A stretch of 64,000 nucleotides of DNA from the NCBI GenBank assembly GCA_017535925.1, contig JAFXTD010000062.1, positions 1-64,000 on the forward strand, in the 5' to 3' direction. Source of the stretch: Selenomonadaceae bacterium. Its GTDB lineage: Bacteria; Bacillota; Negativicutes; Selenomonadales; Selenomonadaceae. Below are positions 16,507 through 54,000 of this stretch, in pieces (the first letter of the stretch is position 1; each line of letters begins with the position of its first letter). The position numbers were made by a program, and so were the translations under genes. The notes beneath the pieces are model-generated. The model made no database searches. It was not told the DNA's origin and saw only the letters and a program-made list of their open reading frames with translations.

Positions 16507-16521
16507 GTTAAATCCTCCTTG

Positions 16522-16579
16522 TTTAGCGGTTAATGGTCAGTTTCTAACCACTAATCACTAATCACTAACCACTAAATTA
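16522..16579. repeat. Heptanucleotide inverted array between iolT and iolE
   Basis: On the plus strand five units of CTAAYCA-type (CTAACCA, CTAATCA, CTAATCA, CTAACCA, CTAAATT; 16544-16578) follow two inverted units (TTAGCGG, TTAATGG; 16522-16535). The array begins exactly at the iolT stop codon (16577-16579, read on the minus strand). The same layout occurs after tal. Confidence 0.8.
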
Positions 16580-17971: not shown

Positions 17972-18039
17972 TTGTTGTACCCCCTCACACTTGATGAGTT
18001 TTTATCTGTACCCCAATCCAACAAATGGCTTAACTTAAA

Positions 18040-20802: not shown

Positions 20803-20813
20803 TGAAAGCCCTC

Positions 20814-21848
20814 CTAAATTTTTGTCTTCCAATCGATTTCGGTAATGACTTCTTCAGCAGCGTGTTCTTTGATAAAAGCTTCGATTTGGTCAATGGTCTG
20901 CATTGCCTCCGAGCAGCTGTGACTTGCCACGACCATTGCCGCGTGAGCCGTCGCGTGCTTGAGAGCTTCGGGGACTTCCCAACCTTCAAGCAAACCGTGA
21001 ACAAATGCGCTTGCGTAAGCGTCGCCGCCGCCGAATGATTTCAAAAGTTTGACGTGATAAGAATCGACTTTGTAAGCGTGGCGGTCTGCGGTGTAGGCAA
21101 CGGAACCGCGCTTGCCGTGTTTGATGACGACGATTTTATTTCCCCACGACAAATATTTTTCGGCAATTTCATGGTCGGGAGGCGTCTCGGCGTCTTCGGG
21201 CAAGAGTTCGGCGAAATTAACTTCGTCACGTGAACCGATAACAACATCACTCAAACGAGCCATTAAGGAGTAGTAAATTGCAATTTCTTCTTTTGAACGC
21301 CAAGTGTAAGGACGATAGTCAATGTCGAAAATAATTTTGGTGCCGTGCATGCGAGCATGTTGAGCCGCCGTCAAGCAAGCTTCGCGACTGGGAGCCGCCG
21401 CCAATGCAAGTCCCGAAACGATTAACGCTTTGGAGCCGGCGATATAATTTTCGCTGACGTCTTCGGGCGCGATTTGCAAATCGGCAACTTTATCGCGATA
21501 CATGAGGATTGAGCTTTCGGTCGGGCTTTTAATTTCGGTGAAAGTCAAGCCCATGCGTTCGCCGTGTTGAGCGCGAGTCATTTGCGTCGTATCAATGCCG
21601 CGAGTCTTGAAAAAGTTGATAATGAAATCGCCGAATTGGTCATTGGATACGCAACCGATAAAGCCGACTTTTTTTCCGAGTTGATTCAAGCCGACGGCGA
21701 TATTTCCCGGTGAGCCGCCCAAGTACATTGAAAAAGTTTTGACTTGGTCGAGTGTGCGATGAATTTCATTTGGGTTGAAGTCGAGAGTTGCGCGCCCGAT
21801 AATCACAACGTCGCGTTCTCTTTTCTGGTCGAATTCGATGAGAGCCAT
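20814..21848 (-). CDS. iolC: 5-dehydro-2-deoxygluconokinase IolC
   Basis: A 344-residue PfkB-family kinase predicted to phosphorylate 2-deoxy-5-keto-gluconate at C6. Features: DVVIIGRATLDFNPNE at the N-terminus, the PfkB signature 1 region YLGGSPGNIAVGLNQLG, and the ATP/anion-hole signature 2 SFGGGDAYASAFVHG with catalytic Asp (GGGD in place of the usual GAGD). The segment DYRPYTWRS is typical of IolC. It is 117 bases downstream of tal; that gap holds a large heptanucleotide inverted array. Confidence 0.94.
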   Translation of the reverse strand: MALIEFDQKRERDVVIIGRATLDFNPNEIHRTLDQVKTFSMYLGGSPGNIAVGLNQLGKKVGFIGCVSNDQFGDFIINFFKTRGIDTTQMTRAQHGERMGLTFTEIKSPTESSILMYRDKVADLQIAPEDVSENYIAGSKALIVSGLALAAAPSREACLTAAQHARMHGTKIIFDIDYRPYTWRSKEEIAIYYSLMARLSDVVIGSRDEVNFAELLPEDAETPPDHEIAEKYLSWGNKIVVIKHGKRGSVAYTADRHAYKVDSYHVKLLKSFGGGDAYASAFVHGLLEGWEVPEALKHATAHAAMVVASHSCSEAMQTIDQIEAFIKEHAAEEVITEIDWKTKI

Positions 21849-21873
21849 TGAAAAATCTCCCTTCGGTCGATTT

Positions 21874-21968
21874 TTAGCTGTTAGTGGTTAGTGATTAGCT
21901 GAATAGAATTTTCTAACAGCTAACAGCTAACAACTAACAGCTAATCACTAATCACTGACCACTTATCA
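21874..21968. repeat. Heptanucleotide inverted array between tal and iolC
   Basis: Four direct units TTAGCTG, TTAGTGG, TTAGTGA, TTAGCTG (21874-21901), an 11-base AT-rich spacer, then eight inverted units (CTAACAG, CTAACAG, CTAACAA, CTAACAG, CTAATCA, CTAATCA, CTGACCA, CTTATCA; 21913-21968). The last unit contains the tal stop codon (minus strand, 21966-21968). The two halves can form an imperfect stem of about 20 bp in the operon mRNA. The iolT-iolE gap has the same unit and layout. Confidence 0.85.
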
Positions 21969-23024
21969 AACAATCATGTATTTGCGAACGAGTTCGACGA
22001 GACCGGCATAGCTTCCGAGGAACTGATTAATCGTGCGCAGGAATGCTCCGTAATGTTGGAACTCTTCGGGCTTCATGCCGTCGGGTTCATAGGCGCGGCG
22101 GAATTCGTCAATTGTCAAAAGTTCGTCAAGCCACTGTTGCGGAACGGGTTCGCTCATGTGTTCTTTGATTTCGATTTTTGTGCCGTTGTATTTTTTCTGG
22201 AAGTCGGAAGTAATCGTGAGGACAACATCGCCGCCGATAAATTGTTCAAAGTGATGCAGGTTGCGATAGGCAGCGAACAAAAGTTTCGTGCGATAGCCGC
22301 GTTCTTTATAAATCTTGTAAGCGTTCTTGAAGACGGCAACGCCCGCCCATTCCAAAGCTTCGGGGTGAACGATAACATCTTTGCCCTTGAGATAAGCTTT
22401 GAGATAATCGTCGGTGCGCCCGCCCATAATCGTGCAAACGGGGTGCATCCAAGAAATATCTTTGCCTTCAGCTTCGCGACGTTTCAAGCCGCGTTCGACA
22501 GCCTCGGCAACGGCAAGAGCTTGCGGAACGGTGAAAGAAACAGTTGCGTTAATGGAGACGCCTTGATAAGTCATTTCTTCGAACGCCTCAATGCCGGCTT
22601 TGCTTGCGGGAGCTTTAATTTGAATGTTGGGCGCGAGTGAGGCGAGTTGGCAAGCGTGTTCGACGAGCTTTTCGGGATTCTGATAAAATTTTGCGTTCGC
22701 TTGGAAAGAAATTTTTCCGCGTTGACCGTGAGCTTTTTCGTGCATGGGCTCAAGCAATTTCGCCGCCTTCAAGCCGAGAGCCTCAATAACTTTCCATGCA
22801 ACGTCGTCTTCGGTGTAGGTCGGGTTGTCAGCGATAATTTGTTTAATCGTCGGTTCCCAATCGGGCAGTTCCTTTTTGAGGACGTTGAAGACGATTGCGG
22901 GGTTTGTGGTCGCGCCGCTTGCCGAGCAATTTTCCAGAGCGTAGGTCAACTCTTTGCACGAGCACGAGTCGTTCCAAACTTCCATTTGCGGATAAGCCTT
23001 GATTGCCTCTTGTAACGTTGTCAT
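21966..23024 (-). CDS. Transaldolase-family protein
   Basis: A 352-residue class I aldolase of the transaldolase family. The substrate-phosphate region ATTNPAIVFNVL and the Schiff-base Lys137 in IQIKAPASKAG are present, as are ATVSFTVPQALAVAEAVERG and TSDFQKKYNGT. It is longer than minimal transaldolases such as TalC (about 215-220) and similar to a variant group sometimes found in sugar-catabolic clusters. It lies in the iol operon, five bases downstream of iolJ. It is not a standard step of the Bacillus inositol route. It may connect the dihydroxyacetone-phosphate or deoxy-sugar product to other sugar phosphates, or it may act on a second substrate of the locus. Confidence 0.88.
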   Translation of the reverse strand: MTTLQEAIKAYPQMEVWNDSCSCKELTYALENCSASGATTNPAIVFNVLKKELPDWEPTIKQIIADNPTYTEDDVAWKVIEALGLKAAKLLEPMHEKAHGQRGKISFQANAKFYQNPEKLVEHACQLASLAPNIQIKAPASKAGIEAFEEMTYQGVSINATVSFTVPQALAVAEAVERGLKRREAEGKDISWMHPVCTIMGGRTDDYLKAYLKGKDVIVHPEALEWAGVAVFKNAYKIYKERGYRTKLLFAAYRNLHHFEQFIGGDVVLTITSDFQKKYNGTKIEIKEHMSEPVPQQWLDELLTIDEFRRAYEPDGMKPEEFQHYGAFLRTINQFLGSYAGLVELVRKYMIV

Positions 23025-48093: not shown

Positions 48094-51000
48094 TCAAGTG
48101 GAATGTTTGAAATGCCAAACGGAGTCGGCAAAAACGACTGCCCCGCTTTCACTCTCGGAACTTTGTATCGTAACAGTATTGCCCGTTTTGAAGGAAAGAG
48201 TAATCATATCGTCGCTCTTATCTATTTTCATTATGTCGTTGAGAGTCACGTCGCTTAATTGAACCTCGTCCGACGAAGATACATTTAAAAACAAATCCGA
48301 GCCTTGATTCTTGCCGCCGATAAAAACATCTTCACCGCCGCCGCCGATTAATGTATCGGAAACAAAACTGTTGCCGCCCCAAAGTTGTGAATTGCCATCG
48401 CCGGCATAAATCGCATCCTCGCCGTCCGAACCGTTGATAATTTCAAAGCCCTCAAGACCTCTGCCGTCAATAACGCCCGGTGTCGTCGCCGCATACACTT
48501 TCAGAAAAGCATAAGCGTTGCTGTCGAGAAGGCTGATAAATTTATCCGTTGCATTTTCAATTACGAGCGTGCCCGTTGAGGAATGCACCAAGAAATTGCC
48601 GCTATCGTCGAAAGTCGAATCTATGTACGTTTCGTCGAAAAGAATGTTCTCGCCCGATTGATAGCCTGAAATGATTTGGTCGTTGCCTCTGTAAATGTAA
48701 TGCACGGGATATTGTTGTGAACTCGTCGTTGTTATTCCCGCTTTTTCGCCAATCACGACCTCGACCGCTTGATTTTCTGAATCAAAACTTTGAGCGTAAA
48801 ATTGCGTTGCTTTGGAAGATACGCCGGATTTTTCTCCGATATAGTTGCCGTTACTGTTGCCGCCGAAAGAATTGCCGCCATTTCCGCTGTTGTTTGAATT
48901 GCCGTTGGAAGACACATTGCCTGAAGAACCGCTTGCCGATTTCCCGCCTGAAGCATCAGAGCCTCTGCCTTCGCTGCTTGAAGTGCCTCCTTGACTTGAA
49001 AGACCGCCGTTACTGTTGCCGCCGTTTCCGCTGCTGCTTCCGTTGCCTGAAGAACTGTTGCCGCCATTTCCGCTGTTGCTTGAATTGCCGCCCGAAGTGC
49101 CCGACTCGCCCAGTATAAAGAAACCGCCCTCGAAGTTCGGAATGAATATGTATCCTCTTACGTTGTCGGGGTCGCCGTCGCCGAAAATTAATACGAATAA
49201 ATCATTGCCGCTCCTAATCGTCTGATAGCTTTCAGCCAAAATATTCAAGGTGTCGTCTTTGCCGAAACCCCAAATGGTATCGTTGCCGTCGCCCAAAGAA
49301 TATCGGATAAAACTATTTTTGGAGCTGCTCGACAAACTTATTTGATCGTCACCTTTGCCGCTGATGATTGTGACATTCGAACCGTAGTTGGTAATTGAAT
49401 CATTGCCCAAGCCGCCAAGAATTGTAACCAAATTTCCATAGTTCCAAATGACATCATTGCCCTGCGTTCCCGTGACAGATACAGACTCTTTGGAGTTAAA
49501 AATATTTTCACCGAGTTCAAGCGGACTATCGGAAGTGAATTCGAATGAATCAATTAAACTGATCGTCTTGCCTTTGGCGTCCTTGACGGTAAGAGAATCT
49601 GCGCCGATATTAAAAACGGCATCCGAACCGACGAGAGAAGCATTGGAAATTTTTCCTGTGGCTATTTCAATCGTATCTTCGTCTGTAGTGAAGTCGCCGA
49701 TAACGTCATTGCCTTCCTCGCAGATAAAAACATCTTTGCCTGCGCCGCCCCAAAGCGAATCATTGCCTTCGCCGCCTTTTAAAGTGTCGTTGCCCGCGCC
49801 GCCGCTTATCGTGTTGGCAAGCTCGTTGCCGATAATTGTGAGGTCATTGGAAACAGAGGAGGCGTCGATAGTTTCAATTTTGTCTTTGCAATAGGAAACT
49901 CTGCTGTCGGTTGTCACGTCGAAAAAGTCTTCATGAAAATTAGGCAAGAGCGTTACGCCCGTGCCCTCCTCGTTTACGATTAAAACCTCTTCAGGATAGA
50001 CAAGCTCGCTGCCGTCGGCGTCAAAGTAAGTGATAACTTTGTCTTTGGCATTCAAGACGGTAATCGTGCCCTTCTTGTTGCCGGAGCTGACCGTGAAGAT
50101 AACGTCGTTCCCTTTGTCCGCGATGCTGATTGTGCCACTCTCGATGCTGATTTTATCGGTCTCGGAGTAATTGGCGATTGTGTCGTCGCCGTCACCCACA
50201 TTGTAAATAAAAATATATGTGCCGTCGCTGCTCGTCAAAATATCATTGTCTTTGCCACCCGTAACGGTAACTTCGGAACCGCTTAAAGAAAAAGAATCAT
50301 CACCGGAGCCGCCTATCACAGCCGCGTTGTCAGCTGAAATGTTAAAATTGTCATCTTCGTCAGAGCCGTTGAAAGTCTTCTTATTCATGTCACCCGTCAG
50401 CTCAACGATATATGCACCGTCATTAGACTTCAGGGAAGAATTTTCACCGAGTACTGTGGAAGTGAGAGTGAGGACTTTATCAACGGGCGTAGGAAGCGAA
50501 ACATTTTCAGCCAGCCCGCCCAAAATAATTTGCGGCGCGCCGGTAATTTTTTCGCTGTAAACAATTTCATTATTAACGACATTGTAACCTGCAGAAGTCG
50601 ATTCTGTTTGATACGTTGCAATATCATTATCGAAAGTCCAACCTGCCGGGGTTGTTGTTGATTTTGGAACATCTTCGCCCAGTTCAAGCGTGTAACCTTC
50701 ACTTATTGTCACCGTCTCTTGGTTCAGTGATTCGTTCCCGACCGTCACTTTTTTATTTGTCAAGTCTATGTCAAGTCCGTCAACCGTTTTTACTCCGTTG
50801 ACCGTTACCAGTGTTTCCCCGCCGCTTGATTCGACATAATTTATTTCGTTTTCTTCGAGGGTATAGCCGCTTGAATTTGTTTCTGTTTTGTAACTCGCTA
50901 CTTCATTTTCTATAGTCCAACCCGCTGAGGTCGTTGTTGTCTTCGGGACTTCTTCGCCCAGTTCAAGCGTGTAACCTTCGCTTATCGTCACCTTCTCTTC

Positions 51001-54000
51001 TTTCAGCGATTCGTTACCGACCGTAACTTTTTTATTTGTCAAGTCTATATCAAGTCCGTCAACCGTTTTTACTCCGTTGACTGAAACTAAAATTTCCCCG
51101 CCGCTTGATTCGACATAATTTATTTCGTTTTCTTCGAGGGTGTAGCCGTTCGATATTGATTCTGTTTTGTAACTTGCTACGTTGTTGTCGATAGCCCAGC
51201 CCGCCGAGGTCGTTGTTGTCTTCGGAACATCTTCGCCCAGTTCAAGCGTGTAACCTTCACTGATTGTCACCGTCTCTTGGTTCAGCGATTCGTTCCCGAC
51301 TGTTACTTTTTTATTAGCCGTATCTATTTCCAAAGCGTCAACCGTTTTTACTCCGTTGACTGAAACTAAAGTTTCCCCGCCGCTTTCAACCACATAATTT
51401 ATTTCGTTATCTTCGAGGGTGTAGCCACTGGAAATTGTTTCTGTTTTGTAACTCGCTACGTTATTATCAATAGTCCAGCCCGCTGAAGTCGTTGTTGACT
51501 TCGGGACATCTTCGCCCAGTTCAAGCGTGTAACCTTCACTGATTGTCACCGTCTCTTGGTTCAGTGATTCGTTCCCGACCGTCACTTTTTTATTTGTCAA
51601 GTCTATGTCAAGTCCGTCAACCGTTTTTACTCCGTTGACTGAAACTAAAGTTTCCCCGCCGCTTGATTCGACATAATTTATTTCGTTTTCTTCGAGGGTA
51701 TAGCCGCTTGAATTTGTTTCTGTTTTGTAACTTGCTACGTTGTTTTCTATAGTCCAACCCGCTGAGGTCGTCGTTGACTTCGAGACTTCTTCGCCCAGTT
51801 CAAGCGTGTAACCCTCACTGATTGTCACCGTCTCTTCTTTCAGCGATTCGTTACCGACTGTTACTTTTTTGTTTTCCGTGTCTATTTCCAAAGCAGCAGT
51901 CGTTTTTACGCCGCTGACTGTTACTAAAGTTTCTCCGCCGCTTGATACCACATATTTTATTTCATTATCTTCGAGGGTGTAGCCGCTTGTTGTTGACTCC
52001 TTTTTGTAACTCGCTACTTCATTTTCTATAGTCCAACCCGCCTGGGTCGTTGTTGACTTCGGAACATCTTCGCCCAACTCAAGCGTGTAACCTTCGCTTA
52101 TCGTTACTTTTTCTTGATTGAGTGAATCGTTCCCGACTGTAACTTTTTTGTTGTCCGTGTCTATTTCCAAAGCGGCAATCGTTTTTACTCCGCTCACTGT
52201 CACCAGAGTTTCCCCGCCGCTTGATTCGACATAATTTATTTCATTTTCTTCGAGAGTGTAGCCGCTTGTCTTTAATTCTCTTTTGTAACTTGCTACGTTA
52301 TTTTCTATAGTCCAACCCGCCGACGTCGTCGTTGATTTCGGAACATCCTCTCCAAGCTCAAGTGTGTAACCTTCGCTTATCGTTACCTTCTCTTGATTCA
52401 GCGAATCATTGCCGACTGTAACTTTTTTGTTGTCCGTGTCTACTTCCAAAGCGTCAATCGATTTTACTCCGCTCACTGAAACTAAAATTTCTCCGCCGCT
52501 CGATTCGACATAATTTATTTCGTTTTCTTCGAGGGTGTAGCCACTGGAAATTGTTTCTGTTTTATAATTCGCTACGTTGTTGTCGATAGTCCAACCCGCA
52601 GGGGTCGTCGTTGTCTTCGGAACATCTTCGCCCAACTCAAGCGTGTAACCTTCGCTTATCGTTACCTTCTCTTGATTCAGCGAATCATTGCCGACTGTAA
52701 CTTTTTTGTTTTCCGTGTCTACTTCCAAAGCGTCAATCGATTTTACGCCGCTCACTGAAACTAAAATTTCTCCGCCGCTCGATTCGACATAATTTATTTC
52801 GTTATCTTCGAGGGTGTAGCCACTGGAAATTGATTCTGTTTTATAATTCGCTACGTTGTTTTCTATAGTCCAACCCGCCGCCGTCGTCGTTGACTTCGGG
52901 ACTTCTTCGCCCAACTCAAGCGTATAGCCTTCACTGATTGTTACTTTCTCTTGATTCAGTGAATCATTGCCGACCGTCACTTTTTTATTTGTCAAATCAA
53001 ATGTCAAGCCGGCTACCGATTTTACGCCGCTCACTGAAACTAAAGTTTCCCCGCCGTCGGTAGAAACATGGTGAGTTGTATTGTCGCCGAGAGTATAAGA
53101 GATCGTTGTCGCAGCCGCTTTATAGCTTGCGACGTTGTCACTGAAAGTCCAACCTGCCGCTTCGACCTCTTTGACAAAAGTAATATCGCTGTTGACTGTG
53201 TATTCGTTGCCGTCAACGGTAATTGTCGCGCCGCTCTTGCAATAAGTCGTTTCGTCGATAGTGTAAGTCTCGGAGCCTTGAACCGTCATATCTTCGGGAA
53301 CTGTGACTTTGTAAACCTGCGTGAGGTCGGGATAATTATTTTCGACAACGTTTTGAGCCGTCGCAAGCGTGTAAATTTCGTCAGCGTTTTTGAAGACGTA
53401 ACAATTGTCGGAGTCTAAAGTCAACGTGCCGCCCTCAAGCGTTTGATTTGGTTCGCTAATCGTGCGGGTTATATTTTCGCCGAGATAGCCCGCTTTTGGT
53501 TTGAAGACAACTTCGCCGCGATAATAGCCGTTGTATTCCTCGCCGCTCAAATATTCGTAGCCTGCAGGCAATGTGACTGCGTAGTAAACGTCGTCCGTCA
53601 AGTCGTGGTCGGTGACGGTGTAAGTGCCGTTGTTCGCGCCCTTAACCGCCACGCCGTCATCAATCGTTATAGGGAGTTCCGTGCCCGCCTCGTAAAAATT
53701 TTTGTCGCCGATTTGAATTGGGTTGTCGAAGGAAATTTTAATCCCTCTCGCGTCTGCCGAATAAACGCGAATGCCGAAGTCGCCCGCATCTAAATTGCTG
53801 TGATAGTAGTTTGTGCCGTCGATTGGCCAATAGTCGTTGGTGTAGTTTCTTCCGATGACCCCGCCGACATAATCGCCGTCGCCCGTGACTTGCGCATCAA
53901 TTTTGTTTATGCCGCTGATTTTGGCTGTACCGTTGTAACTGCTGTCAAAGCCGTTGTAGCCGACCAAGCCTCCAACATTGTCACTGCCGCTTACTGTGCC

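Follow-up and report, generated by a model that had tools for sequence, protein, structure and literature searches.

Intercistronic heptanucleotide arrays form a dispersed family with rapid turnover in a rumen Selenomonadaceae genome

Introduction

In an uncultured rumen Selenomonadaceae bacterium, the genes tal and iolC are separated by an array of heptanucleotide units (heptads) that begins directly behind the tal stop codon and consists of two opposed arms, located at positions 21874-21965 of the 64,000 nt stretch of DNA analysed here (the window). What is this array, and what might it do between two genes of an operon? Reports of heptad repeats go back decades and come from scattered bacteria, but they offer no mechanism by which the repeats spread or function, and our search of the literature on such repeats in Selenomonadales found nothing relevant. 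We asked how the array is built, whether it has relatives in the host genome, and how it differs between related genomes.

Results

The array is present where a preliminary description had located it, and its features are listed in Table 1. The tal stop codon TGA (21968-21966, minus strand) is adjoined on its mRNA 3' side by the left arm, which reads in mRNA sense TAAGTGG TCAGTGA TTAGTGA TTAGCTG TTAGTTG TTAGCTG TTAGCTG TTAGAAA. Eight units of the form CTAAxxx had been claimed for this arm; there are indeed eight heptads, but the TTAG (CTAA) core is exact in only six of them. The four opposite-sense units that had been claimed are there as NNNCTAA heptads (CAGCTAA TCACTAA CCACTAA CAGCTAA in mRNA sense). 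The centre is palindromic, formed by the innermost unit TTAGAAA plus TTCTA, and recurs in many copies of the family described below. The best lag-7 match in the array was 30 in 35 nt, compared with a mean of 13 and a maximum of 22 in 2000 dinucleotide shuffles. As no shuffle of the same spacer reached this score, the array is far beyond chance expectation.

Table 1. Features of the tal-iolC junction and of a second array in the window
Feature	Position	Strand	Remarks
tal (transaldolase family) ORF	21966..23024	-	NCBIfam transaldolase models, E 1e-28, below curated cut-offs
Left arm, eight heptads	21910..21965	-	six with exact TTAG core, two degenerate adjoining the stop
Centre/loop ATTCTATT, 8 nt	21902..21909	-	
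Right arm, four opposite-sense heptads (NNNCTAA)	21874..21901	-	pairs with left arm in RNA fold
Shine-Dalgarno module AAAATCGACCGAAGGGAGATTTTT	21851..21874	-	followed by CA, then iolC ATG (21848)
iolC (5-dehydro-2-deoxygluconokinase)	20814..21848	-	TIGR04382, E 6.5e-119
Second family member	16507..16576	-	between MFS sugar transporter gene and iolE

The RNA of the array has a predicted fold of -43.7 kcal/mol (z = -5.6), in agreement with the long imperfect hairpin that had been proposed to separate tal from iolC. Rfam returned merely microRNA-hairpin matches at the array, far below gathering scores, and a known RNA family was ruled out as all matches were sub-threshold. The genes around the arrays belong to a myo-inositol operon (iolC, iolD and iolE score above NCBIfam cut-offs, iolB below its own), and no tRNA genes were found in the 64 kb. 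From their spacing and the absence of terminators, we infer that tal and iolC are co-transcribed. The second array in the window has the units TTAGTGG TTAGTGA TTAGTGA TTAGTGG TTAGAAA and a degenerate opposite arm; it is missing from the nearest relative, where the spacer is 21 nt.

We then looked for similar arrays across the host genome, a metagenome-assembled genome (MAG) that is 91% complete, of which 45% was sampled (1.17 Mb, with 1,093 genes from a home-made gene caller and 9% intergenic DNA). The pattern TTAGNNNTTAGNNNTTAGNNNTTAG, three TTAGNNN units followed by TTAG, gave 281 overlapping matches (143 + 138) in the host genome against 6 (2 + 4) for the reversed control pattern. Heptads, for which detection of weak cases depends on the threshold, were found in 177 of the 1,074 gene junctions sampled (128/819 co-directional, 22/126 convergent and 27/129 divergent). 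Lag-7 periodicity was detected in 69 intergenic and 10 coding windows of the 1.17 Mb; by comparison, lag 8 gave 2 intergenic windows and lags 4-6 and 9-12 gave none. The tal-iolC array is one of several hundred copies of a dispersed intercistronic family with elements of about 50-110 bp, which bears out the earlier suggestion of a short-repeat family. In each element, degenerate 7-nt units are arranged in two arrays that face each other across an AT-rich centre, and the unit vocabulary in the host is small: TTAG followed by CTG, TGG, TGA or GAA, and AAT[TG] followed by AGG, GGG, CGT or CGC.

The arrays have a marked relation to stop codons. A 7-periodic run was present in 182 of 579 stop-side spacers (45% of the host genome), with 1, 5, 6, 1 and 0 runs at lags 5, 6, 8, 9 and 10, respectively. 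The run includes the stop codon in 61 of these 182 spacers, where uniform placement in the spacer would give 16.1. TAG served as the stop in 60/182 spacers with an array versus 39/397 array-free ones (odds ratio 4.5, p = 4e-11). The heptads are thus not scattered independently of stop codons, which had been named as the outcome that would refute the earlier proposal; the link of stop codons to repeats holds across the sampled genome, although at tal the TGA merely abuts the first unit and is not one of the units itself. In co-directional spacers, the median distance from the stop codon to the beginning of the main hairpin is 3 nt, and that from the end of the hairpin to the start codon is 22 nt. 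A T tract follows only 1 of 63 hairpins, and no terminator was called at the tal-iolC array. Lacking the T tract that follows the G+C-rich stem of an intrinsic terminator, the arrays are not intrinsic terminators, and these results do not support a role as terminator or as attenuator, the latter being one of the roles originally suggested.

Folding potential was enriched in the family. Heptad spacers of 60-140 nt had a median z of -2.5, with 48% below -3, compared with -1.3 and 14% for other spacers. Arms from the same locus had a mean duplex energy of -18.9 kcal/mol versus -14.1 +/- 0.85 kcal/mol for arms permuted between loci, and even the best of 2000 permutations (-17.5 kcal/mol) was weaker than the same-locus mean. 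In half of these heptad spacers z lies above -3, however, and chimeric elements are numerous, with a TTAG-family arm (e.g. TTAGTGG) facing AATTCCC or AGTTCCT. Because of this weak pairing in many copies and the chimeric arms, the hairpin is a tendency rather than a rule.

One array lies within an FMN riboswitch (RF00050, 107.5 bits; L221:15079-15252, G000:C28), where AATTCGGAATTAGGAATTAGG occupies the variable loop region; the G063 orthologue of this riboswitch has a much shorter insert at the heptad position. Heptad arrays can therefore be located within structured RNAs, the Nostoc tRNA-Leu intron being another example (PMC3488679).

The relatives found were rumen Selenomonadaceae or Selenomonadales MAGs. 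The nearest of them, G063, is 96.5% identical to the host in the iol genes downstream of the tal-iolC junction, and its tal-iolC spacer holds GGGGAAAGGG...CCCTTTCCC instead of the host array. We compared 164 orthologous spacers of these two MAGs with 95.4% flank identity, covering 45% of the host and about 30% of G063. Heptads were present at 16 junctions in the host only, at 6 in G063 only and at 10 in both, so 22 of 32 heptad junctions have an array in one genome alone; the polarity of gain or loss was settled at few sites. Spacer length differed by at least 15 nt at 20/32 heptad junctions versus 11/132 others (Fisher p 3e-10).

Gains were apparent at some junctions. The slot at 20803-20813 of the window is 11-12 nt in 11/13 relatives and in the host, and it is 85-88 nt in L051 and L057, with heptad hairpins exactly at the TAG stop that are clear gains in these two genomes. 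At C24 118678, G063 gained a TAG stop, a hairpin and the Shine-Dalgarno module where the host has GAAGC alone between the genes. With regard to the target-site duplications of MITEs or IS-derived elements, the insertion at C7 33240 is bounded on either side by a TTGGAG direct repeat; by eye, most insertions have none.

In other cases, the arms were rewritten with both flanks kept. At C43 8138 both arms were exchanged, with the AATTAGG/AATTCCC type in one genome and the AATTCGT/AATGCGT type in the other, and arms were likewise rewritten at slot 17972-18039 and at tal-iolC. The hairpins found at slot 17972-18039 in genus mates belong to at least four unit families, and the host and L049 have none there. 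All 15 genomes of genus mates whose tal-iolC spacer could be read have a hairpin in it, and these hairpins represent at least six sequences unrelated to one another; in the more distant L062 this spacer is 11 nt with no hairpin. An operon hairpin slot can be conserved while its sequence changes, and such a slot is invisible to sequence-based RNA family searches, as with the sub-threshold Rfam matches above. The preliminary description contained neither this wholesale replacement of arms among relatives nor the Shine-Dalgarno module that adjoins the array.

In L051, the arms of the tal-iolC hairpin repeat at period 8 (GTAGGGAA) and not 7, so the unit length is not absolutely fixed.

Identical sequences occur at separate loci. 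Exact matches of at least 24 nt link 715 pairs of elements. The longest identical elements, of 73 and 62 nt, are on different contigs and in inverted orientation, and the 73-nt pair sits within a larger repeat. These long identical elements point to dispersal by copying. The Shine-Dalgarno module (24 nt) occurs about 22 times in the host, 21 times in G064, 14 times in G066 and four times in both G063 and G065. Almost every copy is exact, and almost every one follows a heptad right arm ending CTAA(A); each copy is directly before a start codon or close by, and the module can form a small hairpin with the Shine-Dalgarno sequence in the loop. The tsf orthologues of the host, G064 and G066 have the module in common and differ in their heptads. 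A regulon was ruled out since the genes downstream of the module are unrelated (tsf, hisZ, hemC, thiC, ahcY, hydrogenase large subunit, iolC), and phage carriage of the module was ruled out since IMG/VR contained no exact match.

A larger dispersed repeat with the ends (T)TAGGGG-CTGTTG[AG]TAAATT, a probable MITE, has 30 copies in the 1.17 Mb (e.g. C24 125553, C7 14588, C32 66736). Ten of 30 of its ends abut heptads, so it may insert into heptads or bring them along.

TTAG arrays were found in 28/60 relatives, all of the same genus and with species-specific NNN, and in 0/23 other genomes of the class; TTAGNNN arrays were found in 0/10 family mates from other genera. At phylum level, 36/398 genomes have at least one TTAGNNN array, in scattered families and again with species-specific NNN. 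This distribution suggests that such arrays arose repeatedly, a sporadic pattern which we liken to that of the heptads of Beggiatoaceae and Cyanobacteria (PMC4679880).

Discussion

We consider it probable, with moderate confidence, that the arrays are a lineage-specific and rapidly rewritten family of intercistronic heptad hairpins with a role at the RNA level, and this is our best reading of the data. At the DNA level, entire elements would be copied, in direct or inverted orientation, into further gene junctions, perhaps by ectopic gene conversion, template switching or some recombinase. Their main landing site would be the stretch from a stop codon to the Shine-Dalgarno sequence that follows; in many cases they would take over the TAG or TGA stop, and in some they would bring a Shine-Dalgarno module of their own. 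After landing, slippage would change the unit number, and arms would be swapped for those of other unit families. At the RNA level, the element would be transcribed within the operon and fold into a long imperfect hairpin about 3 nt past the stop, which would likely keep the cistrons translationally apart and/or block 3' exonucleases, and so set the tal:iolC ratio. Such a hairpin could be why some slots are kept. Reverse-transcriptase-templated repeats were ruled out, as no RVT_1 protein was found in the host genome. Integron attC sites were considered and set aside, the arrays being tandem heptads in ordinary operons.

The arrays could instead be selfish or neutral repeats, tolerated between genes without a selected RNA function because they bring stops in all frames and leave the Shine-Dalgarno sequence undisturbed. 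We think this unlikely, but it deserves serious attention. Of 213 elements, 142 have stops in all six frames, versus 29/213 random intergenic stretches; the Shine-Dalgarno module precedes housekeeping genes that have no relation to one another; in most species many slots hold no element; and arms are chimeric. However, a selfish origin does not readily explain why the tal-iolC hairpin was kept in every readable genus mate despite several sequence replacements. The better pairing of an element's own arms than of permuted arms also argues against this reading, although symmetric copying could yield such pairing too.

A protein that binds heptad RNA or DNA by unit sequence would fit the limited unit vocabulary per genome and the fact that arrays end just before the Shine-Dalgarno sequence. 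It is quite improbable given the complete change of units at one orthologous site between species of about 95% identity and the lack of functional coherence among downstream genes. Ordinary microsatellite slippage confined to the individual loci, without any dispersal, would account for orthologues that differ in unit number by 7-nt steps between species (C43 6805, C43 59025, C50 15439); we judge it very improbable, as a handful of unit families is found again and again at some 200 loci, identical elements of 62-73 nt occur at unlinked places and also inverted, and entire hairpins are present or absent. REP/REPIN elements that a Y1 transposase (RAYT) mobilises, though likewise dispersed extragenic palindromes with high turnover, are hardly credible here, since Y1_Tnp is absent from the host genome (91% complete) and G063, occurs in 5/41 genus mates with no relation to array number, and no fixed 20-40 nt palindrome was present among the units and copies compared.

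Among known systems, the family of intercistronic heptad hairpins is closest to the cyanobacterial STRR repeats, 7-bp tandem repeats found, for example, between hupS and hupL, for which transcript stability or translational coupling has been proposed (PMC2670836). Both have 7-bp tandem units, lie in intergenic regions within operons and form hairpins, and the host arrays are STRR-like in having tandem 7-nt units in many intergenic copies, with hairpin potential and probable co-transcription. Unlike STRR, the host family is from Bacillota, has two opposed arrays per element and many unit families in one genome, and shows stop-codon fusion, an attached Shine-Dalgarno module and sites that stay fixed as their arms are replaced. 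Its units also differ from those of STRR, and the scattered distribution in the phylum suggests repeated origin. The heptads of the Nostoc tRNA-Leu intron are degenerate, fall into unit classes and pair into a hairpin whose length varies with the repeat number (PMC3488679). The degenerate pairing heptads are common to both systems, but those of Nostoc are at one locus inside an intron whereas the host heptads are a genome-wide intercistronic family.

The TAACTGA repeats of Beggiatoaceae, some Cyanobacteria and Bacteroidetes are also intergenic heptads of sporadic distribution, lying near start codons with 7-nt indels between close strains (PMC4679880). However, they have one fixed unit in direct repeats, with a single indirect repeat reported and related heptamers seldom repeated (PMC4679880), whereas the host arrays are inverted and their units, mainly TTAG or AAT[TG] plus the variable triplets given above, are degenerate. 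The GGGAATC and GGGGA(C/T)T repeats of Xanthomonas and Nostoc lie between aligned ORFs, near or overlapping stop codons, and some are inverted; they form G-quadruplexes and are reported to be genomically stable (PMC4692102). In contrast, the host TTAG family has no G runs and high turnover. The GTGATTA heptanucleotide noted in Helicobacter pylori by Rehm et al. (PMC4692102) is TTAGTGA in another register. The REP/BIME/REPIN elements are dispersed extragenic palindromes with a proposed mRNA-stabilising role (PMC3733652), but the host family has no RAYT, no fixed consensus and arms built of units.

We tentatively raise a bolder idea, doubtful as it is: the elements may be a hitherto unnoticed class of minimal mobile cassettes of stop codon, heptad hairpin and Shine-Dalgarno module, which insert in operons without breaking genes and whose arms a dedicated copying process rewrites one unit at a time. 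If this were true, mobile cassettes would re-wire operon junctions between near-identical genomes. Across dozens of species in this genus, one and the same junction can be read as empty, filled, or filled with a different heptad family, and this series makes gain, loss, arm rewriting and the effect on neighbouring genes directly testable.

The window also contains a 279-bp tandem repeat at 50635-53056 (8.7 copies, 85% match), which is probably inside a repetitive surface-protein gene.
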